Below, piece after piece: positions 245 through 9,747 of a stretch of DNA of 64,000 bases (its first letter is position 1; every line of letters begins with the position of its first letter). Source of the stretch: Ignavibacteriales bacterium (GTDB lineage Bacteria > Bacteroidota > Ignavibacteria > UBA10030). Both the position numbers and the translations under genes were made by a program. Under the pieces are notes generated by a model. That model was not told the DNA's origin and searched no databases. It saw only the letters and a list, made by a program, of their open reading frames with translations. The stretch lies in contig JAPLFQ010000005.1 in NCBI GenBank assembly GCA_026390595.1, positions 1-64,000 on the forward strand, read 5' to 3'.

Positions 245-946
245 TCAAAATGCGGTGTAAAGATAGTACACTCCAGCCAAGACTACGAGCGCGCCCGCAC
301 CCCGCTTAAGGTACGTCGCGCCTCTTGACTGTTCTGTCCAATTGAGATACTTCTGGACTGTTCCCGCTGCGCCTCCGGCAATGGCAATGACGGCACAGTG
401 CCCTGCCCCGAACGCCGCGATCAACGAGAAAGCACGCATCGGATCCGTGGATGCAATGCTGAACACAACGCCAAGCACCGGCGCCATATAGGCGAAGGTG
501 CAAGGGCCGAGCCCAATGCCGAAGATCAGGCCCAGAAGCAACGCGCCTTTCCATCCTTGAGCATAGGATGTTTGCGGGACAAACCTGCCCCATGAGAGAG
601 TGATGACGTCCATGAGATAGAGACCAACAACGAAAAACACTCCTGCCACGATGATATTGCCCCACACGCCGACATCTCCCATCATCCGACCTGCTGATGC
701 TGTGACCGCACCGATGAGCCCGATCGTGATGAGAATACCGAGGGCAAAGACGAGGGAGAGCGAGTACGAGCGCCTCACCCCTTGCTGTCCCTGGCTGCTG
801 ATATATCCGATGACAAGGGGAATGCTGGAGAGGTGACATGGACTGAGCAGAATGCTTACAACACCCCATCCCAACGCGGCTACGAGCGCAATTCCGAACG
901 GCTCACTCAGGGCTGTTGTCAACCATGTGAAGAGGCTGTCAAGCAT
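245..946 (-). CDS. ccdA: CcdA-type cytochrome c biogenesis/thiol-disulfide transporter
   Basis: A 233-residue polytopic membrane protein with about six hydrophobic segments. CcdA/DsbD-beta proteins carry electrons from cytoplasmic thioredoxin across the inner membrane to periplasmic thiol proteins. The two hallmark cysteines are visible: C37 in LSPCHLSSIP and C149 in GLGPCTFAYMAP, each followed by proline-containing stretches typical of the family. Length matches stand-alone CcdA. It starts four bases after the stop of the exported thioredoxin-like gene upstream, so the two are probably co-translated and CcdA likely reduces that protein. It is a late gene of the ArsR-headed operon, which suggests a redox role in metal or metalloid stress rather than only cytochrome maturation. 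Confidence 0.88.
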   Translation of the reverse strand: MLDSLFTWLTTALSEPFGIALVAALGWGVVSILLSPCHLSSIPLVIGYISSQGQQGVRRSYSLSLVFALGILITIGLIGAVTASAGRMMGDVGVWGNIIVAGVFFVVGLYLMDVITLSWGRFVPQTSYAQGWKGALLLGLIFGIGLGPCTFAYMAPVLGVVFSIASTDPMRAFSLIAAFGAGHCAVIAIAGGAAGTVQKYLNWTEQSRGATYLKRGAGALVVLAGVYYLYTAF

Positions 947-949
947 TTC

Positions 950-1342
950 TCACCTCCCCGTTTGGATCTTCAGTCCCTGCTTCTGAAGGAGCTTGTCGAT
1001 CTCGGATTCGGGATAAAATCCCTCGTGACGAAAGAACTCCTTGCCCGCGGCATCCAGGAAGACCTGTGTCGGAATAAGCTTGATACCGTATTGTTCCGCA
1101 TATTTTCGCTGCTCGGACTTCCAAACGTCATAGAACACTACTTTGATTTGTTCGCCGAATTTTTTCTCGATGGCCTTCATCACGGGCTGCATTTGACGAC
1201 ATGGAATGCAGTTGACCGAGCCAAGCTCCACAAATGTGACAGGACTTTTCTTGTCAACTGCTGCAGAGGGTTTTTTCTGGGATAAGGTAGTCTGTGCTGT
1301 AATGACGAGTGCAATTGTTGCTATGACATAATGGATTCTCAT
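950..1342 (-). CDS. Exported thioredoxin-like protein (CIPC)
   Basis: A 130-residue thioredoxin-fold protein. The start is placed at the ATG at 1342 (MRIHYVIATIAL), because a hydrophobic signal segment begins there and GAAAGAG lies just upstream; a longer frame to 1363 would overlap the previous gene. Residues 1-21 form a likely signal peptide or anchor. The redox motif CIPC is at C45-C48 in the sequence SVNCIPCRQM, and a cis-proline appears in LIPTQVF. It should act in the periplasm, recycled by the adjacent CcdA-like protein. It starts two bases after the stop of the upstream small redox protein. Its natural substrate is unknown. Confidence 0.85.
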   Translation of the reverse strand: MRIHYVIATIALVITAQTTLSQKKPSAAVDKKSPVTFVELGSVNCIPCRQMQPVMKAIEKKFGEQIKVVFYDVWKSEQRKYAEQYGIKLIPTQVFLDAAGKEFFRHEGFYPESEIDKLLQKQGLKIQTGR

Positions 1343-1344
1343 AT

Positions 1345-1581
1345 TCACTCTTTCTTCAACCATTGTAGAAGTTGTTCATCCTTGGGTACACTGCCGAAAC
1401 TTTTGAGGACGCCGTTGATAACCAATCCTGGCGTCATCATAACTCCATATTGCATAATTTCTTTCAGGTCGGTGACCTTTTCGATTTCCAGGTGCAGTTG
1501 ATTTGCTTCATCCAGCTGACGCACTTTTTGCTCGAGCGCCTTGCACTTGCTGCATCCGGATCCGAGAACCTTGACATTCAT
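1345..1581 (-). CDS. Small redox-active disulfide (thioredoxin-fold) protein
   Basis: A 78-residue mini-thioredoxin of the redox-active disulfide protein 2 type. The start is the ATG at 1581 (MNVKVLGSGCSKCK), five bases after a strong GGAGGA ribosome binding site; the frame extends further upstream but without coding character. C10 and C13 form CSKC at the start of helix 1, and TPGLVING carries the cis-proline. These proteins are commonly found beside ArsP_1 (DUF318) permeases and ArsR regulators, as here. It is paralogous to the protein at 2636-2884. A role as thiol or metal chaperone or reductant for the permease is inferred. Confidence 0.83.
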   Translation of the reverse strand: MNVKVLGSGCSKCKALEQKVRQLDEANQLHLEIEKVTDLKEIMQYGVMMTPGLVINGVLKSFGSVPKDEQLLQWLKKE

Positions 1582-1616
1582 ATATCCTCCTCGATGATTC
1601 GACTGCCGTCCGATCG

Positions 1617-2639
1617 TCAATAGACGATGTTAAAAAGATAGCCAACGATGATGATGCCGAACGCAACTACGCCGACGAAGATAAAAATCAGTGGTAGCTT
1701 GAGGACTTTGCGTAGTATGATGGTTTCCGGAAGCGAAAGGCCGATCACAGACATCATAAAAGCCAGGGCGGTACCGAGCGACGCCCCCTTTGCCAGCAGC
1801 GCCTGCACAATCGGGATGATTCCTGCTGCGTTCGAATACAGCGGCACACCGATCAGCACGGCCACGGGAACGGACCACCAGGCGGATTTTCCCATCAATC
1901 CTGCCATGAAGTTTTCCGGCACGTAGCCATGGATGCCCGCTCCTACTCCAATACCTACAAGCAGGTAGGGCCATACCTTTCCCACGATATCGCTGACCGC
2001 GGAATATCCCGACTGAATCCGGTCACGGAAGTCAGGCGCGGCTTCCTCCATTCCAGGATTGGTTGAGTGGATCTGATAGACCCAGTCCTCCACAAACCTT
2101 TCCACTTTGAGTTTTCCAATCACGAACCCGGCTGAGATTGCGATGACGAGACCTGTGCCGACATACAGCAGCGCAGTTTGCCATCCAAACAGTCCCCACA
2201 GCAGAACAACCGCTATCTCATTGATCATCGGCGCAGCAATAAGGAATGAAAACGTGACGCCCAGCGGAATGCCTGCCTCAACAAATCCTATAAAGAGTGG
2301 AACCGCTGAACAGGAACAGAAGGGCGTAACGATTCCAAGCAAGCTTGCGAGCATGTTCCCTGCGAACAAAGACTTGCCGCCGAGCATGGCACGTGTACTT
2401 TCAGGTGAGAAATACGAGCGCACGATACCTACGACGAACACAACCAGCGTCAGCAGGAGCAACACTTTGGGGACTTCGTAAACGAAAAAGCGCACGGCCT
2501 CGGTCAGTCGTTCCCCCTGCGGCAGTCCTGTCACGAGCACGAGTGCATCTGCCGCTTGTTGCAGGACGGCATACAGCGCGATCCAGAGTGGAAGAAGTAC
2601 TACAACTGAGCCAAGAAGATGTTTTTCAACAAGTTTCAT
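1617..2639 (-). CDS. ArsP_1 (DUF318) family permease, metal/organoarsenical efflux
   Basis: A 340-residue inner-membrane permease with roughly eight to ten hydrophobic segments. The family signature is seen at TPFCSCSAVPLFIGF (C108, C110), followed by a glycine- and proline-rich helix GIPLGVTFSFLIAAPMINE. Known members export trivalent organoarsenicals or, in other lineages, copper/zinc; the substrate here cannot be read from sequence. Its ATG overlaps the stop of the upstream small redox gene by four bases (ATGA), and a related small redox gene follows it, so permease and thiol proteins are translationally linked. The ArsR-type repressor at the head of the operon supports metal/metalloid-inducible expression. 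Confidence 0.85.
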   Translation of the reverse strand: MKLVEKHLLGSVVVLLPLWIALYAVLQQAADALVLVTGLPQGERLTEAVRFFVYEVPKVLLLLTLVVFVVGIVRSYFSPESTRAMLGGKSLFAGNMLASLLGIVTPFCSCSAVPLFIGFVEAGIPLGVTFSFLIAAPMINEIAVVLLWGLFGWQTALLYVGTGLVIAISAGFVIGKLKVERFVEDWVYQIHSTNPGMEEAAPDFRDRIQSGYSAVSDIVGKVWPYLLVGIGVGAGIHGYVPENFMAGLMGKSAWWSVPVAVLIGVPLYSNAAGIIPIVQALLAKGASLGTALAFMMSVIGLSLPETIILRKVLKLPLIFIFVGVVAFGIIIVGYLFNIVY

Positions 2640-2884
2640 TGCGGGCTCTGGTGGGCGAGGAGAATTTCTTTCAGCTTTTCCACAGGCGGCACAAAACCCG
2701 CCAGGACTACCTTCTCGTCAATGACCAGACCGGGCGTCTTCAGAATGCCATACGCGGCGATATCCTGATAGGCCTCCACTTTTTCGATTGTCGCTTGAAG
2801 ATGAAGTTCGCTCAACGCTTCCTCTGTGCGACGGTGGAGTGTCTTGCAGTTCATGCAGCCTGATCCAAGAACCTTGATATTCAT
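2636..2884 (-). CDS. Small redox-active disulfide (thioredoxin-fold) protein, paralogue
   Basis: An 82-residue mini-thioredoxin starting at the ATG at 2884 (MNIKVLGSGCMNCK), with AGGAGAA about ten bases upstream. C10-C13 give the CMNC redox motif and KTPGLVIDEK contains the cis-proline. It closely resembles the protein at 1345-1581, so the permease gene is flanked by two related thiol proteins, probably from duplication. Its stop overlaps the permease start by four bases. It follows the ArsR-type regulator within 30 bases and is thus the first structural gene of the operon. Confidence 0.83.
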   Translation of the reverse strand: MNIKVLGSGCMNCKTLHRRTEEALSELHLQATIEKVEAYQDIAAYGILKTPGLVIDEKVVLAGFVPPVEKLKEILLAHQSPQ

Positions 2885-2912
2885 TATCTGTTGTTCTCCT
2901 ATGGACACGTCG

Positions 2913-3224
2913 TTATGCTTTGAGGGCTTCTGCCTTTTTTTCTGATTCAAGCCTGGCAATGGCAGCGGCAACGTCAAGTATCTTGAAGATGCGGTCGTCA
3001 GTTACCTTGAAGTTTACCCGCAATCCGTCTTTCCACGACGTGAGAATGCCTGCATGGACAAGGATTTTTAGATGGCGGGAGAGGTTCGACTGTTCAAGCT
3101 CCAGCGCGGGAGCGAGCTCGCAATTGCAGAGAACGTCCTTCCGGAGGAGCTCAACGATGCGAATGCGATTTGGATGTGCGAGTGCGACCAGGATTTCTGC
3201 CTTTAAGTCTGCCGATTTCTTCAT
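2913..3224 (-). CDS. ArsR/SmtB-family metal-sensing repressor
   Basis: A 103-residue winged-helix regulator. The start is the ATG at 3224 (MKKSADLKAEILVALAHPNR) with GGAGAA a few bases upstream; an in-frame extension to 3356 has no coding support. The HTH is at about residues 35-65 (SNLSRHLKILVHAGIL). C33 and C35 in DVLCNCEL sit where As(III)/Sb(III)-sensing ArsR proteins hold their alpha-3 cysteines, so a thiophilic metalloid or metal is the likely inducer. It heads the leftward operon with the permease and thiol proteins. A perfect palindrome overlapping its promoter at 3247-3268 is the likely operator, giving autoregulation. Confidence 0.87.
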   Translation of the reverse strand: MKKSADLKAEILVALAHPNRIRIVELLRKDVLCNCELAPALELEQSNLSRHLKILVHAGILTSWKDGLRVNFKVTDDRIFKILDVAAAIARLESEKKAEALKA

Positions 3225-3246
3225 CGTTTCTCCGTGAGTAGTAGAG

Positions 3247-3268
3247 TATATGAGTATATGCTCATATA
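3247..3268 (-). promoter_or_regulatory. ArsR-type operator palindrome
   Basis: A perfect inverted repeat TATATGAG-N6-CTCATATA lies 22 bases upstream of the arsR-like start and overlaps its probable promoter. On the minus strand its core reads TATGAGCATATACTCATA. The same 18-base core, with one change, recurs at 31473-31490 in front of the DUF134/ArsP_2 operon. Repressor identity is inferred from position. Confidence 0.72.
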
Positions 3269-3463
3269 GTATGCCAGACGGAATGCCCACGAATTTGGGC
3301 CACGGAACGTCGAAACACTCCGCCAGCTTCCCGCGTGTGAGAATCACTTCCAGCAATTAGGACGAAGCGAACGACGCTGCATGATGGTTCGACATACAAC
3401 AGAAAAGGAAGGCAGTCAATGTGAGGTGAGGTGAGGTTCATCCATCGTTTTCGACAAGACAAC

Positions 3464-3512: not shown

Positions 3513-4616
3513 TTACTTGAGAAGTGTGAGTTTCTTTGTTGCGGAGAAACGTCCCGCCTGCATGCGACAGAAATACGGTCCGCTGGCCACTCGTCCTCCA
3601 GCATTGTCTTTTCCATCCCATTCAACTGCGTATCGGCCCGACTCGTGATGTTCCGACGCAACCACATTGCGCACCAGACGCCCGTGGATATCGTAAATCG
3701 CGATATCTACGGTTGCTGCAGCCGGAATTGCGAACTGAATCCGCGTTTGCGGATTGAACGGGTTTGGATAGTTGTTCTCGAGCTCGTAGCCTGCCGGGAC
3801 GCCTTCAAGCTCCGCAACATGCGTCGTGCCTGTCCTGTGGTCGCCGTGGCACTGCGTGCACTCCATTTTTGCAGTGATGGTGCCGCTGTGGCAGCCTTTG
3901 CACTCGGCAATGATCGCCGGCGAAGCAAAGAGCGGAGTGAACTTCGAAGCCAATTTGTCGTTCAGGATCTTTGCGGCGTATGCGGCAACGTCGCCCGTGA
4001 GGCGGGCACAGCGTTCTTTGCGCTCTGTTGAGCTCTCAGTGAACTTGGCGCTCTTGCACCATTCTGCGATCGAGGCGTGGCAGAGAATGGAGCCGGAGGT
4101 ATTCTGGGCGAGAGTCTGTGTGTATTTGTTCTGCGTGTATTTCGATTGAACACCGTACTGGTTGCTGATGTCTGTGGGGAATTTTGTCTGCGTGTACCAT
4201 CCGAATACCTCGCTCTCCAATGCAGAGCCATCAGCTTTCACGGAGACAAGTGCGATGAACGCCGCTGCACCAGCCACCGCGCCGCACGTCCCACCCCAGC
4301 TCGCTCCACCACCGCCACCCCATAACATAAGTCCGGTTGGGAATGATGTGTAGGGTTCTCCCGCGACATCCGCGCTTGCTTTCACAAGCGCTGCGAATGC
4401 GCCGAAGCAGCATCCGCCGTATGTGGCGTCGTAGTACAGATCGTGTCCCAGAATCCGGACTTTCTCGACGTCAAGTGCCTGATACGGATATGGCCAGGCA
4501 GCATTGGTGCCTGCCATCGCTTTGTTCATGAGGGAATCAGCAGCCACCACGCCAACGACGGCTCCTGCCGCGTATTTTGACCCTGATGATAGAAAATCTT
4601 TTCGTGAAATCTTCAT
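3513..4616 (-). CDS. Secreted C_GCAxxG_C_C-type haem protein with T9SS sorting domain
   Basis: A 367-residue protein. The start is the ATG at 4616, five bases after GGAGG. Residues 1-35 are an export signal with a Tat-like SRKDFL motif, although RK replaces the usual RR. A C_GCAxxG_C_C-like region follows (ATYGGCCFGAFAALVKA, C69-C70; GGTCGAVAGA, C111; further cysteines at about 179, 187 and 203). Two haem c sites come next, CKGCH at 239-243 and CTQCH at 253-257. Residues about 276-367 form a type IX secretion sorting domain (ENNYPNPFNPQTRIQF). This implies a cell-surface or released haem protein with redox chemistry. It follows the MarR gene by 11 bases and is probably co-transcribed with it. 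The substrate is unknown. Confidence 0.78.
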   Translation of the reverse strand: MKISRKDFLSSGSKYAAGAVVGVVAADSLMNKAMAGTNAAWPYPYQALDVEKVRILGHDLYYDATYGGCCFGAFAALVKASADVAGEPYTSFPTGLMLWGGGGGASWGGTCGAVAGAAAFIALVSVKADGSALESEVFGWYTQTKFPTDISNQYGVQSKYTQNKYTQTLAQNTSGSILCHASIAEWCKSAKFTESSTERKERCARLTGDVAAYAAKILNDKLASKFTPLFASPAIIAECKGCHSGTITAKMECTQCHGDHRTGTTHVAELEGVPAGYELENNYPNPFNPQTRIQFAIPAAATVDIAIYDIHGRLVRNVVASEHHESGRYAVEWDGKDNAGGRVASGPYFCRMQAGRFSATKKLTLLK

Positions 4617-4627
4617 GAGAACCTCCT

Positions 4628-5107
4628 TCAAGTATTAGTTTGTACGTGAGACGATTCTGTGGTACTGCGTGCAGTTTCGGTATGGACAGGAACCTCGTTC
4701 GAGGTGATCGTGCGGACACAACCCATAAACTGAGATCGTCGTTCTTCAGGGAGGAGCTGCAGAAGAGCTATAGCAATTTCTTCGGCCCTTGATTGGACGC
4801 TTTCGACTAACTTGAGACCGGCGTCAGTAAGCGTCAATCGTTCCGTTCGACGATCCGGATCACCAAGCGCCCTTTCAATGAGGCCCCGCTCCTGGAGTGC
4901 GGACAACAGTTTTGAGAGAGTACTCTTGTGAACATCGAGTTTCTCGGCGAGACTGCCGGCCGATTCCGGATGATCGAGGTACAGAAACAGCAAGCACTCC
5001 AACTGATAGACCGGGAGAGCCGCTGTCTTTGCCAATGTGTTCTGAACGCGATGATTCCAGAGACCAAGCCTTATGATCTCAACCGCCGCTCTTTTGTATT
5101 CTTCCAT
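4628..5107 (-). CDS. MarR-family transcriptional regulator
   Basis: A 159-residue winged-helix regulator. The HTH is at about residues 48-75 (SAGSLAEKLDVHKSTLSKLLSALQERGLI), followed by the wing with the DPDRRTERLTLTDAG signature typical of MarR. The long C-terminal helix is present. It lies directly upstream of the haem/T9SS gene on the same strand and is divergent from the methyltransferase/radical SAM cluster starting at 5365. The 257-base spacer could therefore hold promoters for both directions. The inducer is unknown; the gene context suggests redox or thiol-reactive compounds. Confidence 0.85.
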   Translation of the reverse strand: MEEYKRAAVEIIRLGLWNHRVQNTLAKTAALPVYQLECLLFLYLDHPESAGSLAEKLDVHKSTLSKLLSALQERGLIERALGDPDRRTERLTLTDAGLKLVESVQSRAEEIAIALLQLLPEERRSQFMGCVRTITSNEVPVHTETARSTTESSHVQTNT

Positions 5108-5364: not shown

Positions 5365-6009
5365 ATGGACACAATCGAAATAGACAAGAGATACACACAA
5401 TTGGCGGAGCAGGAATGCTGTCTTTCCTGCGGCGGGGCATTGGACCTGAGCCAACCGAAGGTTGGGGAAGTTTGTGTTGATCTGGGATGTGGCAAGGGGA
5501 CCGATCTGATACGATTGCGTGAGGCGGTTGGAGACGGCGGCTCTGTCTATGGTGTCGACATTTCTGACGGAATGCTCGCGAAGGCGAGAAAGAACATCGA
5601 GAAATTCGGGTACACGAACGTTTCACTTGTCCGATCGGAGCTCGAGAGTATACAACTGCAGGGGGAGCTCGCAGATCTTATCATCTCCAATTGCACTATT
5701 AACCACGCCAAAGATAAGCGTGCGGTGTGGTCAGAAATTCATCGGATCCTGAAAAAGGGGGGGCGATTCGTCGTGAGCGACATCTACTCCAGCGATCCGG
5801 TCCCCGCGGAATATGCAAACGATCCGGTTGCTGTCGCCGAATGCTGGGCCGGAGCGATTACAAAGGGAGAATACATGAAGATTCTGACTGAGGCAGGATT
5901 CAAAGACATCAGCATAGTTGAAGAGAGCAAGCCATACGCGAAGGGAAAAGTCACCGTGGTAAGCTTCACGGTACAAGCGAAGAAGTCATCGTGCAATTGC
6001 GGATCCTGA
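5365..6009 (+). CDS. ArsM-like SAM-dependent methyltransferase
   Basis: A 214-residue class I methyltransferase. The start follows AAAGGGAAAC directly. SAM-binding motif I is VDLGCGKGTD (G41-G45), with VYGVDISDGM as motif II. ISNCTINHAKDKRA (C110) and AECWAGA (C160) match the SNC and C-x-AGA segments that hold the two As(III)-binding cysteines in arsenite methyltransferases, but the protein is much shorter than typical ArsM. Extra cysteines are at C18/C19/C22 and at the C-terminus (SSCNCGS, C210/C212). It is the first gene of a cluster with a short Cys peptide, a radical SAM maturase and a thioredoxin reductase fusion. Either a metalloid or the peptide thiols could be the substrate; this is not decided by sequence. 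Confidence 0.8.
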   Translation: MDTIEIDKRYTQLAEQECCLSCGGALDLSQPKVGEVCVDLGCGKGTDLIRLREAVGDGGSVYGVDISDGMLAKARKNIEKFGYTNVSLVRSELESIQLQGELADLIISNCTINHAKDKRAVWSEIHRILKKGGRFVVSDIYSSDPVPAEYANDPVAVAECWAGAITKGEYMKILTEAGFKDISIVEESKPYAKGKVTVVSFTVQAKKSSCNCGS

Positions 6010-6040
6010 TCGGGTCCGTGCATTCAGAAAGGAGGTCTCT

Positions 6041-6136
6041 ATGAAATCTCTGATCACAACAAACACGACCACTGCAACGAGCACAGCGCAGTGCTGTGCA
6101 AAAACGTCAAAAAACGCGGCAGGTTGTCACGACTAA
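6041..6136 (+). CDS. Candidate RiPP precursor: 31-residue Cys-containing peptide
   Basis: A short frame of 31 codons preceded by an ideal Shine-Dalgarno (AAAGGAGGT, 6028-6036, four bases before the ATG), the best ribosome binding site in this cluster. It starts MKSLITTNTTTATSTA and ends AQCCAKTSKNAAGCHD. The Thr/Ser/Ala-rich N-terminal part could be a leader and the CC...C tail a core. It lies 31 bases after the methyltransferase stop and 48 bases before a radical SAM/SPASM gene, the usual placement of a precursor peptide. It is too short for standard gene callers. Translation is supported by the ribosome binding site and position only; no known precursor family is recognised. Confidence 0.6.
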   Translation: MKSLITTNTTTATSTAQCCAKTSKNAAGCHD

Positions 6137-6184
6137 TTCACGAGCGACAATTCTCATCAGTATGGCTTAGCTTTCTCTCCTCCC

Positions 6185-7504
6185 ATGAAATTCTCACAAC
6201 ACAACATCTTCTCAAAGATTGCGGATTCCGATGAATACTTCATCGTGAACCTGCTTTCCGGCAACGCAGACATCCTCTCAGCGGACAAAGCGCTGGAGAT
6301 TCTCGATCAGCGGTACACAGATGTCGACGAGTATGTCGCCAAGGGATACTTGAGCGACGAGGCAGAGGAAACCACGTTGTTTCGGAAGAGATACGCGGAC
6401 TTTCTTGATGAGCGTGACAACGATGAAGTACAGCTCTTTTTCGTCCCCTGGTATTCATGCAATTTCGCTTGCGGGTACTGTTACCAGGAAGGGTATGAAA
6501 ACGAGCACGGCGAGCCTGGCGCTGAGATCGTCGATTCTTTCTTCCAGTATGTGCAGAAGGAGTTCGCCGGCAGAAAGAAGTACATCACGGTGTTCGGCGG
6601 GGAGCCGCTGCTTTCAGGCACAAAATACAGGAACACAATCAGGCGCTTGCTCGACAGAGCACAAGAGGCCGGCCTGGAGACCGCCTTTGTGACCAACGGC
6701 TATAACCTTCAGGAATATGTCGACACTCTGAAGGAATACCGTATTCGTGAAATTCAGGTGACGCTCGATGGGCCGGAACAGCTCCACAACATCCGTCGTC
6801 CGTTGAAAGGGGGCGGCTCGACGTTCGAACACATCGCCGCCGGTATCGACAAAGCCCTTGAACACAATCTCACGATCAACCTGCGCGTCGTTGTCGACCG
6901 GCAGAACATCACAGCTCTTCCTGCTCTTGCACAATTTGCGATCGATAAGGGGTGGACACAACACCCGCAATTTAAGACGCAGCTCGGGCGGAACTATGAG
7001 CTTCATTACTGCCAGACCGATCGGTCCAAATTGCTGACCCGCGTGGAAATGTTCCAGGAGCTCTACACGCTCATCCAAGCACACCCGGAGGTTCTTCAAT
7101 TTCACAAACCAGCATTTTCAATTGCCAAATTTCTCTTCGAGAATGGAGAACTCCCCAGCCCGCTGTACGACTCGTGTCCCGGCACGAAGACGGAATGGGC
7201 ATTTGACTACACCGGTACTATCTACTCGTGTACAGCAACCGTAGGGAAGAAAGAAGAGGCCCTTGGCACGTTCTATCCCACGGTGTCGAAACGGGAAGAA
7301 CTGATTGAGCGATGGCAAGAACGTGACGTTACGTCAATCAAGAAATGTGAATCTTGCAACGTGCGTCTCGCTTGCGGCGGGGGCTGTGCGTCGGTCGCTT
7401 TCAACGGAACGGGGAACATCCTTTCACCCGATTGCCGTCCCATCAAGGAACTGCTGGAAATGGGGATGTCCACATACTTTAAAAGGGAGTTCGTTCAGCC
7501 ATGA
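6185..7504 (+). CDS. Radical SAM/SPASM peptide maturase-like protein
   Basis: A 439-residue protein. Residues 1-80 form an N-terminal domain (MKFSQHNIFSKIADSDEYFI) like the peptide-recognition regions of maturases. The radical SAM cluster motif is C92-x3-C96-x2-C99 (CNFACGYCYQ), followed by VFGGEPLL. The C-terminal SPASM region has C at about 330 (DSCPG), about 348 (YSCTATVG), then CESC (about 389-392), LACGGGC (about 398-402) and SPDC (about 416), enough for two auxiliary Fe-S clusters. Such enzymes mostly make C-C or C-S bonds on ribosomal peptides. No strong Shine-Dalgarno precedes the ATG. Its end overlaps the next gene by four bases (ATGA). The adjacent short peptide is the obvious candidate substrate. 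Confidence 0.85.
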   Translation: MKFSQHNIFSKIADSDEYFIVNLLSGNADILSADKALEILDQRYTDVDEYVAKGYLSDEAEETTLFRKRYADFLDERDNDEVQLFFVPWYSCNFACGYCYQEGYENEHGEPGAEIVDSFFQYVQKEFAGRKKYITVFGGEPLLSGTKYRNTIRRLLDRAQEAGLETAFVTNGYNLQEYVDTLKEYRIREIQVTLDGPEQLHNIRRPLKGGGSTFEHIAAGIDKALEHNLTINLRVVVDRQNITALPALAQFAIDKGWTQHPQFKTQLGRNYELHYCQTDRSKLLTRVEMFQELYTLIQAHPEVLQFHKPAFSIAKFLFENGELPSPLYDSCPGTKTEWAFDYTGTIYSCTATVGKKEEALGTFYPTVSKREELIERWQERDVTSIKKCESCNVRLACGGGCASVAFNGTGNILSPDCRPIKELLEMGMSTYFKREFVQP

Positions 7505-8790
7505 GTGATCTGATTCGATACATCAAGACAGAAGACTTCGAGAACACTGTGCTCAACGGGGGTGACGTGGTGCTCGATTTCTATTCATCCGAATGCCCGC
7601 CGTGTGAGGCGCTGGCAGCAAAGTTTGAACCGCTCAGCGAGATCTACGGCCGCGACATCACGTTTCTCAAGATCTTCCGTCAGGAAAACAGAGAATTGGC
7701 AACAAAACTCGGAGTCTCCTCTTCGCCGACACTCCTGTTTTTCCGAAACGGTGAGCGCATTGGTGAACAACTGACCGGAGGTATCAAGAGATCCGATATT
7801 GTCAGAAATCTGGGGTTGTTCCTGACACAGGAACGGTCGGAGGAGCTTCGTCGGAGCATTCGGCCGGTGAAGACGGAGTGCGATGTGATTATTCTGGGGG
7901 CGGGTCCGGCTGGACTGGCGACAGCCATTTACACCGCACAGGCAAAGTTAAAGACGATCGTAGTGGACCGGGAACTGCCTGGCGGACAGGTGAAGGTGAC
8001 ACACCTCGTGAGCAACTATCCCGGATTTTCGGAGCCAATTTCCGGTTACGAATTGATGCACCATATGTCTGAGCAAGCCAAAGGCGCGGGGGCGGATTTT
8101 CGCACTGCAGTTGAAATTACATCAATCGACCTTGTCCACAAGAACATTGTCGTGGATGGCTTTGAGACGATCAAAGCGAAGAAGATTATTATTGCGACCG
8201 GCTCTTCCCCGCGGATTCTTGGTGTGAAGGGGGAGAGAGAATACCGCGGGCAGGGAATTTCCTATTGCGCCACCTGCGACGCAAAGTACTATGAGGGGAA
8301 GGATGTCGTTGTCATCGGTGGGGGCAATTCTGCAATTGAAGAGTCGCTGTTCATTGCAAAATTCGCGCGGAGCGTGACCATCGTACACCAGTTTGATACG
8401 CTGCAGGCGAACAAAACCGCTCAGGAAAAAGCGTTTGCCAACCCGAAAATCAAGTTTGTCTTCGAGCACGAACCGAGAGAGTTCATTAAAGAGGGAACAA
8501 GTGTCCGGAAGGTTGTGATCGAAGATTTGAAAACGAAACATCTGAAGACGATTGAGTGTGATGGAGTATTTATATTCGCGGGAATGAAACCCAACCTCGA
8601 TGAATTCAGCCGTTACTTTGAGTTGGACCAGTGGGGATATATCAAGACCGATTCGAACACGCGAACCAACATCCCGGACGTGTACGCGGTTGGTGATGTC
8701 GCGAGCAAATCATTCCGGCAGATAACTACTGCAGTATCGGATGGAACGGTCGCAGCAATAGCTGTTTCGAAAGAGCTGGAAGCCGCCTGA
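7501..8790 (+). CDS. Thioredoxin-thioredoxin reductase fusion
   Basis: A 429-residue fusion. Residues 1-105 are a thioredoxin domain with the motif ECPPCEAL (C32, C35) and cis-proline SSPTLLFF. From about residue 125 a low-molecular-weight thioredoxin reductase follows, with FAD motif ILGAGPAGLATAIYTA, redox CATC at about C256-C259, NAD(P)H motif VIGGGNSAIEES and C-terminal QITTAVSDGTVAA. Trx usually precedes or follows TrxR; here Trx is N-terminal. It overlaps the radical SAM gene by four bases, so it is translationally coupled and probably supplies thiol electrons to the maturation pathway or reduces the peptide. A second, non-fused TrxR is at 25029-26009. Confidence 0.88.
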   Translation: MSDLIRYIKTEDFENTVLNGGDVVLDFYSSECPPCEALAAKFEPLSEIYGRDITFLKIFRQENRELATKLGVSSSPTLLFFRNGERIGEQLTGGIKRSDIVRNLGLFLTQERSEELRRSIRPVKTECDVIILGAGPAGLATAIYTAQAKLKTIVVDRELPGGQVKVTHLVSNYPGFSEPISGYELMHHMSEQAKGAGADFRTAVEITSIDLVHKNIVVDGFETIKAKKIIIATGSSPRILGVKGEREYRGQGISYCATCDAKYYEGKDVVVIGGGNSAIEESLFIAKFARSVTIVHQFDTLQANKTAQEKAFANPKIKFVFEHEPREFIKEGTSVRKVVIEDLKTKHLKTIECDGVFIFAGMKPNLDEFSRYFELDQWGYIKTDSNTRTNIPDVYAVGDVASKSFRQITTAVSDGTVAAIAVSKELEAA

Positions 8791-9216: not shown

Positions 9217-9384
9217 GCTTGAGACGAATGCGTACTTTGCAGCGATTCCGTCGCGTGGGAAATCGAGGGATGGCCTTGATTGAATTTGATGAACTGCGCC
9301 TGAATTGCCCGCCTGATCTCATTGGCGAGTCGTTCTGTGCTTGGCAATTTTCGATTGATCGTGAACAATTCAAAGGAAGAAATC

Positions 9385-9747
9385 ATGGGTGACATGGCCG
9401 GGTTTGTCATTCTGGGTTTACTTGCTGGCGTTCTGAGCGGACTCGTGGGTCTGGGTGGTGGATTCGTGATCGTGCCTGCGCTCGTCTTCATTTTCGGGTT
9501 TTCACAACATCAGGCGCAAGGAACGACACTAGCTTTGCTGGTACCACCAATAGGGCTCCTTGCAGCATGGACATACTATAGACAAGGGTTTGTTGATATC
9601 AGGGTCGCCGCGTTGATTGCAGTTGGGTTTGTAGTCGGGAGTCTTCTTGGTGCCCGGTATGCGATGACCGTATCGAACGAAACGCTTGAGAAAGTTTTTG
9701 GGGTTGCACTCGTGCTCATCGGTCTTAAGATGATTATTGGGAAATGA
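9385..9747 (+). CDS. Half-length TSUP (TauE/SafE-like) transporter
   Basis: A 120-residue membrane protein starting at the ATG at 9385 (MGDMAGFVILGLLAG) after AAGGAAG. It has four hydrophobic helices and the TauE/SafE repeat signature GLVGLGGGFVIVPALVF. Normal TSUP proteins contain two such repeats in about 250 residues; this is one repeat, and such half-size members presumably work as dimers. TSUP proteins move sulfur-containing or other organic anions. Its stop overlaps the start of the response regulator (ATGA), so the two are translationally coupled. Confidence 0.8.
   Translation: MGDMAGFVILGLLAGVLSGLVGLGGGFVIVPALVFIFGFSQHQAQGTTLALLVPPIGLLAAWTYYRQGFVDIRVAALIAVGFVVGSLLGARYAMTVSNETLEKVFGVALVLIGLKMIIGK

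Follow-up and report, generated by a model that had tools for sequence, protein, structure and literature searches.

What four adjacent genes near the start of an Ignavibacteriales contig (JAPLFQ010000005.1) make together, and for what use, is the question addressed here. The genes encode an ArsM-like S-adenosylmethionine (SAM) methyltransferase, a short cysteine-bearing peptide, a radical SAM/SPASM enzyme and a fusion of thioredoxin with thioredoxin reductase (Trx-TrxR), and they lie in a stretch of 64,000 nucleotides that was analysed as a whole, hereafter the window. An earlier note on this DNA had singled out these four consecutive genes of one strand as a candidate peptide-modification locus, and re-deriving coordinates and domains from the sequence confirmed the arrangement. 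Two details also held: the stretch ahead of the peptide gene (AGAAAGGAGGTCTCT) is, judged by eye, the strongest Shine-Dalgarno-like sequence among the four, and the Trx-TrxR gene starts within the radical SAM gene, the two sharing 4 bases (ATGA). The peptide of the window, 31 residues long, begins MKSL and ends AQCCAKTSKNAAGCHD. The cassette may represent an undescribed class of radical SAM RiPP (ribosomally synthesized and post-translationally modified peptide), with a conserved product that acts inside the cell as a thiol or as a binder of soft elements and is kept reduced by a Trx-TrxR of its own, a reading to which we give somewhat better than an even chance. Taken part by part, the peptide is very probably the substrate of the radical SAM maturase, it is moderately likely that the maturase installs a crosslink or ring of the kinds named below (thioether, thiooxazole), and for a conserved thiol or soft-element role of the product the chances stand about even. 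The features of the locus are collected in Table 1.

Table 1. Features of the cassette and the adjoining regulator gene, in coordinates of the window
Feature	Positions	Strand	Basis
ArsM-like SAM methyltransferase, compact, 214 residues	5365..6009	+	Pfam methyltransferase domain, NCBIfam, fold
Shine-Dalgarno-like stretch AGAAAGGAGGTCTCT ahead of the peptide gene	6026..6040	+	sequence
Putative precursor peptide gene, 31 residues, MKSLITTNTTTATSTAQCCAKTSKNAAGCHD	6041..6136	+	homologues adjoining the radical SAM gene
Peptide core AQCCAKxSxxxxGCHD, residues 16-31	6086..6133	+	11 of 16 positions invariant in 78 of 78 peptides
Radical SAM/SPASM enzyme, probable peptide maturase, 439 residues	6185..7504	+	Pfam radical SAM domain, NCBIfam, fold
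N-terminal unit of the maturase, residues 1-77, proposed leader-binding part	6185..6415	+	RRE-like by order of elements
Radical SAM cluster motif CX3CX2C, Cys92/Cys96/Cys99	6458..6481	+	79 of 79
SPASM cysteines Cys331, 349, 388, 391, 397, 401, 417	7175..7435	+	78 of 79 each
Thioredoxin-thioredoxin reductase fusion, 429 residues	7501..8790	+	Pfam thioredoxin and pyridine-nucleotide-disulfide oxidoreductase domains
MarR-type regulator, divergent; possible cassette regulator	4628..5107	-	NCBIfam/Pfam

The recurrence of the peptide carries the argument. Relatives of the radical SAM enzyme numbered 180 in the species-genome collection, and the best 80 of them (55-75% identical) were read with flanks of up to 6 kb, shorter at contig ends, making 81 loci together with the window. 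The peptide adjoins the radical SAM gene in 78 of the 81. Absence or disruption of the peptide in all related loci had been named by the earlier note as fatal to its idea; loss in the three loci that have no peptide beside the enzyme (L031, L040 and L044) was considered and rejected, these being split or contig-broken cassettes (L031 starts at a contig end) in genomes that all hold the peptide elsewhere, adjoining a methyltransferase gene. Moreover, 11 of the 16 residues of the core AQCCAKxSxxxxGCHD are identical in all 78 peptides, which comprise 77 distinct core DNA sequences and 39 distinct core peptides. At the 11 invariant codons, pairwise comparison of the 77 distinct DNA cores gave 17031 synonymous and 0 non-synonymous codon differences. 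Peptides were picked by a script rule as ending in GCHD, which accounts in part for the invariance of these four positions, and the seven other invariant positions were not all required by the rule. An alignment of 32 peptides has 13 invariant positions, Met1 and Leu4 among them, and the L069 peptide, outside this alignment, has Val at position 4. Lengths range from 30 to 39 residues, and there are three cysteines in 75 of the 78 peptides, four in two and five in one; the extra cysteines lie in the leader, one each in the L041 and L063 peptides and two in that of L097. The peptide gene is thus real, is under strong selection at the protein level, and is present wherever the radical SAM enzyme was found. 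That it belongs with the cassette enzymes is near certain, and sequence data could make the predicted link between peptide and maturase no firmer.

A selenocysteine form of the peptide was also considered and rejected, since each core cysteine codon of the 78 peptides is TGC or TGT; the search was for Cys forms, which left TGA forms outside what it could list, and the genomes of all 81 loci have the Cys form. Against NCBIfam the peptide matched 0 families at E <= 0.01, in a search to which a query of 31 residues gives little power, and its sole Pfam match, the BTK motif, covers 13 residues with 18.1 bits, under the gathering score of 24.

The cassette recurs as a unit. A methyltransferase homologue lies upstream in 77 of the 81 loci and a Trx-TrxR match downstream in 78, some of the matches being partial or frame-broken. 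The earlier note had suggested looking for a short CC...C peptide between neighbouring methyltransferase and radical SAM genes, and this check gave all four parts together in 74 of the 81 loci; of the 60 loci whose sequence extends far enough in both directions, 57 have them all. The methyltransferase side of L094 lies beyond the contig end; Trx-TrxR is absent in L038 and L100, where the sequence ends just past the radical SAM gene, and L077 shows none over a distance of 6 kb. Furthermore, a sample of 395 genomes of the phylum (radical SAM cut-off E <= 1e-60, peptide profile cut-off E < 1e-12) showed enzyme and peptide in exactly the same six genomes, each pair close together on one contig. 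The chance of two identical six-genome sets would be 2e-13 under independence, which the figure assumes of genomes that are related to one another. Since the rows of the peptide profile include the window peptide and at least two more from the six positive genomes (G049 and G209, by coordinates), the informative part of this test is the lack of a convincing peptide in the 389 enzyme-free genomes, in which two partial matches were seen (E 0.006 and 0.0096).

With respect to the radical SAM enzyme, the earlier note had named membership of a subfamily with a known non-peptide substrate as a refutation; on comparison, its best sequence models proved to be peptide maturases and its best whole-chain fold match CteB. 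Length filters were passed by 79 radical SAM proteins, 67 methyltransferases and 68 Trx-TrxR fusions out of the 81. Cys92, Cys96 and Cys99 of the cluster motif occur in 79 of 79, and each of the seven SPASM cysteines in 78 of 79, all seven being invariant in a 38-row alignment from which L032 was left out. The radical SAM gene of L032, a Bacteroidales metagenome-assembled genome (MAG), has an in-frame TAG at 6775-6777, not at a conserved cysteine, and is otherwise well kept; it is either a broken copy or a sequencing error. In NCBIfam release 20, for which the best 25 models were listed for the window enzymes and models at E <= 1e-20 for further members, the eight best models of the window enzyme are all peptide maturases, each matched far under its cut-off: CefB with 151.7 bits (cut-off 600), TIGR04463 with 125.9 (525), Clo7bot with 125.5 (600) and PapB with 113.5 (340). 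The SCIFF maturase model TIGR03974 gave 72.1 bits against a cut-off of 425. Peptide maturases likewise lead among the models of seven further members, 0 of the 7 scoring above any cut-off listed.

An AlphaFold model of the maturase (mean predicted local distance difference test score, pLDDT, 86.4) has CteB as its best solved fold match (5wgg; Z 26.4, root-mean-square deviation 3.6 over 394 residues, model residues 5-435, 17% identity), and TigE (8vpo) is matched over model residues 1-433 with Z 20.5. The CteB and TigE alignments start at residues 5 and 1, but only residues 74-433 are well tested in the fold comparison. Ahead of them the model places strands at 7-11, 18-22 and 27-31 and helices at 33-40, 47-52 and 59-77. 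RiPP recognition element (RRE) domains consist of three strands followed by three helices, and this N-terminal unit, RRE-like in the model by the order of its elements, is proposed as the leader binder.

The chemistry of the maturase can be guessed at by analogy. According to the available text of the sources, CteB forms a Cys-Thr thioether (PMC11002830), and PapB forms Cys-Asp thioethers in Cys-X3-Asp motifs, with other spacings tolerated (PMC9413430). The segment Cys19-Ala-Lys-x-Ser23 of the core is invariant and has the same Cys-X3 spacing as the PapB substrates, which makes Cys19-Ser23 a candidate thioether site, Ser being no proven PapB acceptor. Moreover, the SPASM enzyme SbtM is described in the available part of PMC11002830 as forming a thiooxazole, and the invariant Gly28-Cys29 might permit the same here.

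The methyltransferase was said by the earlier note to carry ArsM-type cysteines, and it does. Its nearest NCBIfam model is the arsenite methyltransferase PRK11873/NF008823, matched with 181.5 bits, under the cut-off of 263; three relatives score 185.7, 193.3 and 191.3 bits, again under 263. Its best sequence matches in the PDB are ArsM and AS3MT, and the thirteen best fold matches of its model (pLDDT 89.3, residues 15-21 and the tail being poorly predicted) are all structures of these two. Cys22, Cys110 and Cys160 are found in each of the 67 members and correspond in the alignment to Cys72, Cys174 and Cys224 of 4kw7 and 4fr0, which we take to be the As(III)-binding cysteines of 4kw7. The ArsM proteins of the relatives served for comparison (11 of 20 loci yielded a sequence and the other 9 were dropped), and in them the same three columns hold Cys in 10, 11 and 11 of 11. 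In addition, Cys18 and Cys19 (65 and 66 of 67) align with the CC pair of ArsM; Cys37 is conserved, with Val in all 11 ArsM compared; and most members have a Cys-rich tail (CNCGS; 59 and 50 of 67 at its two positions). The source genome also encodes a separate ArsM on another contig, over the cut-off with 356.1 bits and with one stop inside the matched frame. The earlier note had argued for a thiophilic element from the two metal/metalloid operons of the window, which is a weak argument, an ArsP-type permease being found near 3 of the 81 loci; judged from the aligned residues, the arsenic-binding cysteine triad would be the better one.

The Trx-TrxR fusion retains both of its CxxC pairs, the thioredoxin CPPC (Cys32, Cys35) and the reductase CATC (Cys256, Cys259), all four cysteines being present in 68 of 68. 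It scores 334.1 bits with TIGR01292, whose cut-off is 343.45, and the nucleotide motif GGGN(S/T) is kept. In E. coli thioredoxin reductase an Arg pair holds the phosphate of NADPH; the fusions have His296-Gln297-Phe298 in 68 of 68, with Gln-Phe in the place of that pair. Because the pair is replaced, NADH or another electron donor is likely to be used by the fusion.

Taken together, these parts suggest the following scheme. The RRE-like N-terminus of the radical SAM enzyme would bind the leader with its MKSL-type start, and the clusters of the enzyme would put a link or ring on the core, most likely a thioether from one cysteine (for example Cys19 to Ser23), the alternative being a thiooxazole at Gly28-Cys29. 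The cysteine pocket of the ArsM-like enzyme would hold a soft atom or thiol, the methyl group going onto that atom or thiol or onto the peptide, and Trx-TrxR would pass electrons to disulfides on the peptide or the methyltransferase. Thioredoxin serves arsenite methyltransferases in the same manner. The product would remain in the cell and work in sulfur, thiol or metalloid redox balance, and would be no antibiotic. A conserved intracellular thiol or soft-element peptide is favoured because the core is nearly fixed, no exporter or immunity gene stands near more than a few loci, the reductase is dedicated and the methyltransferase has a soft-element pocket.

The neighbouring genes were grouped into 45 clusters, about half of them annotated. 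The named clusters near the 81 loci include DUF302 (26 loci), DUF1847 (23), a Crp-type regulator (17) and an IS1595 zinc-ribbon protein (15), as well as a ferredoxin-type membrane protein (11), a YgaP-type membrane domain (10), OsmC (5) and YeeE/rhodanese (3). Short separate thioredoxins occur in 27 of the 81 gene runs. An FAD oxidoreductase lies near 18 loci, its nearest model being that of type III sulfide:quinone reductase (SQR; 83.9 bits, cut-off 525), and a TauE/SafE-like cluster, named by eye, near 7. The ArsP-type permease near 3 loci includes that of the window and leaves two among the 80 relatives. A further tally covered open reading frames (ORFs) of at least 90 residues that flank the radical SAM gene and belong to none of the clusters examined before, with a maximum of five per side; 251 were listed and 241 used, the ten omitted (one each from L032, L033, L037, L039, L047, L054, L072, L074, L093 and L099) following no preset rule and several of them overlapping others. 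These 241 proteins, in two sets of 106 and 135 for each of which 25 families were shown, have no dominant family, the largest listed being Nitro_FeMo-Co with 5 and 2 members; an ArsR-type helix-turn-helix domain is found in 3 of the 106 and is not among the 25 families listed for the other 135. The recurring annotated neighbours tend towards thiol and sulfur redox functions, and little among them points to arsenic. An arsenic operon context as the key to the function was accordingly set aside, the ArsP-type permease standing near 3 of 81 loci and arsenic families being uncommon among those listed for the 241 proteins.

Several observations weigh against a conserved thiol or soft-element peptide. 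Transporters are found near a few loci: an ABC-ATPase-like cluster (cluster 14, named by eye) in 6, with ABC_tran in 4 and HlyD_3 in 2 of the 241 further proteins. Every accessory neighbour is confined to fewer than half of the loci, annotation is lacking for about half of the clusters, and DUF302 and DUF1847 are without known function and both missing from the window. The best maturase score among the eight enzymes scanned is 162.4 against a cut-off of 600, so that the chemistry is guessed from distant relatives. The cysteines of the methyltransferase are those of ordinary arsenite methyltransferases and may point to free arsenite instead of the peptide. Furthermore, 79 of the 80 relatives come from MAG or uncultured records by title, and the reading as a whole is built on sequence and structural models.

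Three of the alternatives, namely a thiol cofactor, an arsenic RiPP and a copper RiPP, are narrower versions of the thiol or soft-element role, and their probabilities overlap. A bolder proposal within that role is a ribosomal thiol cofactor built by the radical SAM enzyme and carrying sulfane sulfur, arsenic or selenium, with three Cys ligands, ArsM-type methylation and recycling by Trx-TrxR; we put it forward tentatively, as possible rather than likely. To our knowledge, no RiPP has been described that serves the cell as a thiol or metalloid cofactor and has a reductase of its own.

Mycothiol and bacillithiol act as redox cofactor thiols in other bacteria, and the peptide could be a ribosomal counterpart of such low-molecular-weight thiols, a redox cofactor with Trx-TrxR as its reductase and sulfane sulfur supplied by the SQR-like enzymes. 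The dedicated dithiol reductase, both of whose CxxC pairs stand in 68 of 68, is in line with this, as are the invariant core and the SQR-III-like, YeeE/rhodanese, OsmC and thioredoxin neighbours of some loci; however, no consumer enzyme is present at half of the loci, the methyltransferase is left without an obvious role, and the cassette is found in only 6 of 395 genomes of the phylum. We regard this version as doubtful.

An arsenic-handling or organoarsenic RiPP, in which the three cysteines would hold As(III), the ArsM-like enzyme would methylate it and Trx-TrxR would regenerate the thiols, while the radical SAM enzyme modified the carrier or formed a C-As bond, appears unlikely. It draws on the ArsM cysteine triad and fold and on the ArsR- and ArsP-type genes upstream in the window, and arsenic stays possible despite the context because an ArsM together with a radical SAM enzyme is the pairing of the arsinothricin and arsenosugar pathways, as far as the available text of PMC8552651 goes. 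However, the ArsP-type permease is near only 3 of the 81 loci and the ArsR-type domain is as scarce as stated above, the source genome has its separate ArsM over the cut-off, and ArsL, unlike the SPASM enzyme here, is believed to contain just one iron-sulfur cluster (PMC8552651, same portion).

A copper or other metal chaperone or metallophore, bufferin-like and with a thiooxazole at Gly-Cys, is distinctly unlikely. Gly28-Cys29 is invariant, SbtM forms a thiooxazole from Cys (PMC11002830), and Cu(I) is bound by a thiooxazole RiPP whose conservation within a genus is obligate (PMC12538549), each as given in the accessible part of the source; but the annotated clusters include no copper family, nor do the 25 families listed for each set of the 241 proteins, and the peptide matches no NCBIfam precursor model.

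An antimicrobial or signalling RiPP, for which one can cite the sactipeptides and ranthipeptides that radical SAM/SPASM enzymes make from short Cys peptides (PMC11002830, in its available text) and the ABC-type transporter genes near a few loci, is very improbable in view of 11 core residues of 16 identical in 78 of 78 peptides and of the annotated neighbours, where any exporter, protease or immunity gene is limited to a few loci at most. A near-invariant core with neither exporter nor peptidase in more than a few loci is better fitted by a cofactor-like role than by an antibiotic. Equally improbable is a small unmodified protein or regulatory leader riding with the enzymes: modification of the peptide is a prediction, which leaves room for such an ORF, but selection acts on the encoded residues through the last codon, the peptide stays with the methyltransferase in split cassettes, and the neighbouring enzyme groups with peptide maturases.

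The cores of antibiotic RiPPs are usually variable, and the precursors of pyrroloquinoline quinone and mycofactocin have a fixed cellular job. A core identical at 11 of 16 positions across several phylum labels points to such a fixed job, and the peptide has the look of a conserved, hitherto undescribed part of the cell and not that of an antibiotic. Taken as a radical SAM RiPP, the cassette adds a new class to a kind already known; were its product a thiol or metalloid cofactor, that product would be entirely new. The claim of the earlier note that the combination matches no known family has stood up: radical SAM enzyme, methyltransferase and peptide have no model over its cut-off in the NCBIfam release used, nor have seven further radical SAM and three further methyltransferase members among models at E <= 1e-20. 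Searches of the open-licence literature returned no description of the motif or of the enzyme combination, QCCAK being found only in a snake-venom paper, and no pathway joining such a peptide with an ArsM-type methyltransferase and a dedicated dithiol reductase came up in the searches made.

Each component nevertheless has known counterparts. The CefB, TIGR04463, Clo7bot and PapB maturases, the closest sequence models, are SPASM enzymes acting on peptides, as the enzyme here probably is, whereas its scores lie far under their cut-offs, its precursor has three cysteines in a fixed core, and its partners are a methyltransferase and Trx-TrxR. CteB/SCIFF, the ranthipeptide maturase of thermocellin (5wgg, 5why), is the best fold match, yet it shares 17% identity, its model TIGR03974 stays at 72.1 of 425 bits and the precursor here is not of the six-Cys kind. 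ArsM (PRK11873/NF008823; 4fr0, 4kw7; human AS3MT, 8xt7) has the fold, the three As-binding positions and the upstream CC pair of the methyltransferase described here, which differs in its shorter N-terminus, invariant Cys37, mostly Cys-rich tail and scores of 181.5-193.3 of 263 bits (four members), and in coming with a peptide and a maturase. The arsinothricin (arsQML) and arsenosugar (ArsM-ArsS) pathways share the pairing of an ArsM-type with a radical SAM enzyme, in the available text of PMC8552651, but have no precursor peptide there, the radical SAM enzyme acting on an arsenical. The selenobacteriocin/SbtM thio(seleno)oxazole RiPPs likewise join a SPASM enzyme with a short Cys or Sec (selenocysteine) peptide; in contrast to them, the peptide here matches neither the precursor model TIGR04081 nor any other NCBIfam model, and its core cysteine codons are TGC or TGT. 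Finally, the Sec families 'UXX-star' and the ArsM-like/UXPK-star fusions, as presented in the accessible part of PMC13188914, place a thiol or selenol near the C-terminus alongside an ArsM-like enzyme, and the Gly-Cys-x-x-stop ending of the peptide resembles the name 'GUXX-star', a resemblance read from the name only; here, however, the residue is Cys, in a separate peptide of 31 residues adjoining a radical SAM enzyme.

The reductase also has a precedent, in that Mycobacterium leprae joins TrxR and Trx in one chain. Compared with that protein, the fusion described here has the reversed order, with Trx first, and forms part of a biosynthetic cassette.

The distribution of the cassette is sparse and uneven. 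Among 61 close-relative genomes, a match of at least 72% identity was found in 3 and some distant radical SAM match (E <= 0.001) in 32. Records carrying the cassette are labelled Bacteroidota, Ignavibacteriota, Spirochaetota and Elusimicrobiota, with one Acidobacteria bin, and the radical SAM tree groups by phylum label with few exceptions (6 changes, the minimum possible being 4); horizontal transfer of the cassette is possible. A mobile element was considered and rejected, two plasmid records having only 26-28% identical matches and the viral contigs no radical SAM relative. The cassette is amenable to experiment: it has four genes and a single substrate of 31 residues, and Carboxylicivirga linearis FB218 (L101) is a named strain that has it.

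Some minor features of the surroundings may be recorded. The commonest accessory gene, in 38 of the 81 loci, encodes a hydrophobic Cys-bearing protein of 79 residues (GCNSGACGITGNP...CKTC in L059, 4728-4967), a representative of which had no Pfam or NCBIfam match. The IS1595-type zinc-ribbon protein (for example L035, 3464-3904, 146 residues) is too short for a full transposase, and in 15 of 15 relatives it sits on the opposite strand, the median position being about -1.9 kb. A MarR-type gene (cluster 24, distinct from the regulator of the window) is near 4 of the 80 relatives, and stands directly upstream of the methyltransferase in L084 and L097. In the window, Rfam gave no match anywhere. 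A short TauE/SafE-family protein lies downstream of the cassette (9322-9747, + strand), and a redox/metalloid gene run on the - strand (245-3356) comprises a DsbD-type membrane protein, thioredoxins, an ArsR-type regulator and the ArsP-type permease, the latter accompanied by two small Thioredoxin_3 proteins. Between this run and the MarR-type gene, also on the - strand (3513-4631), is a gene for a split-Soret cytochrome c-like / C_GCAxxG_C_C protein with a C-terminal type IX secretion sorting domain.

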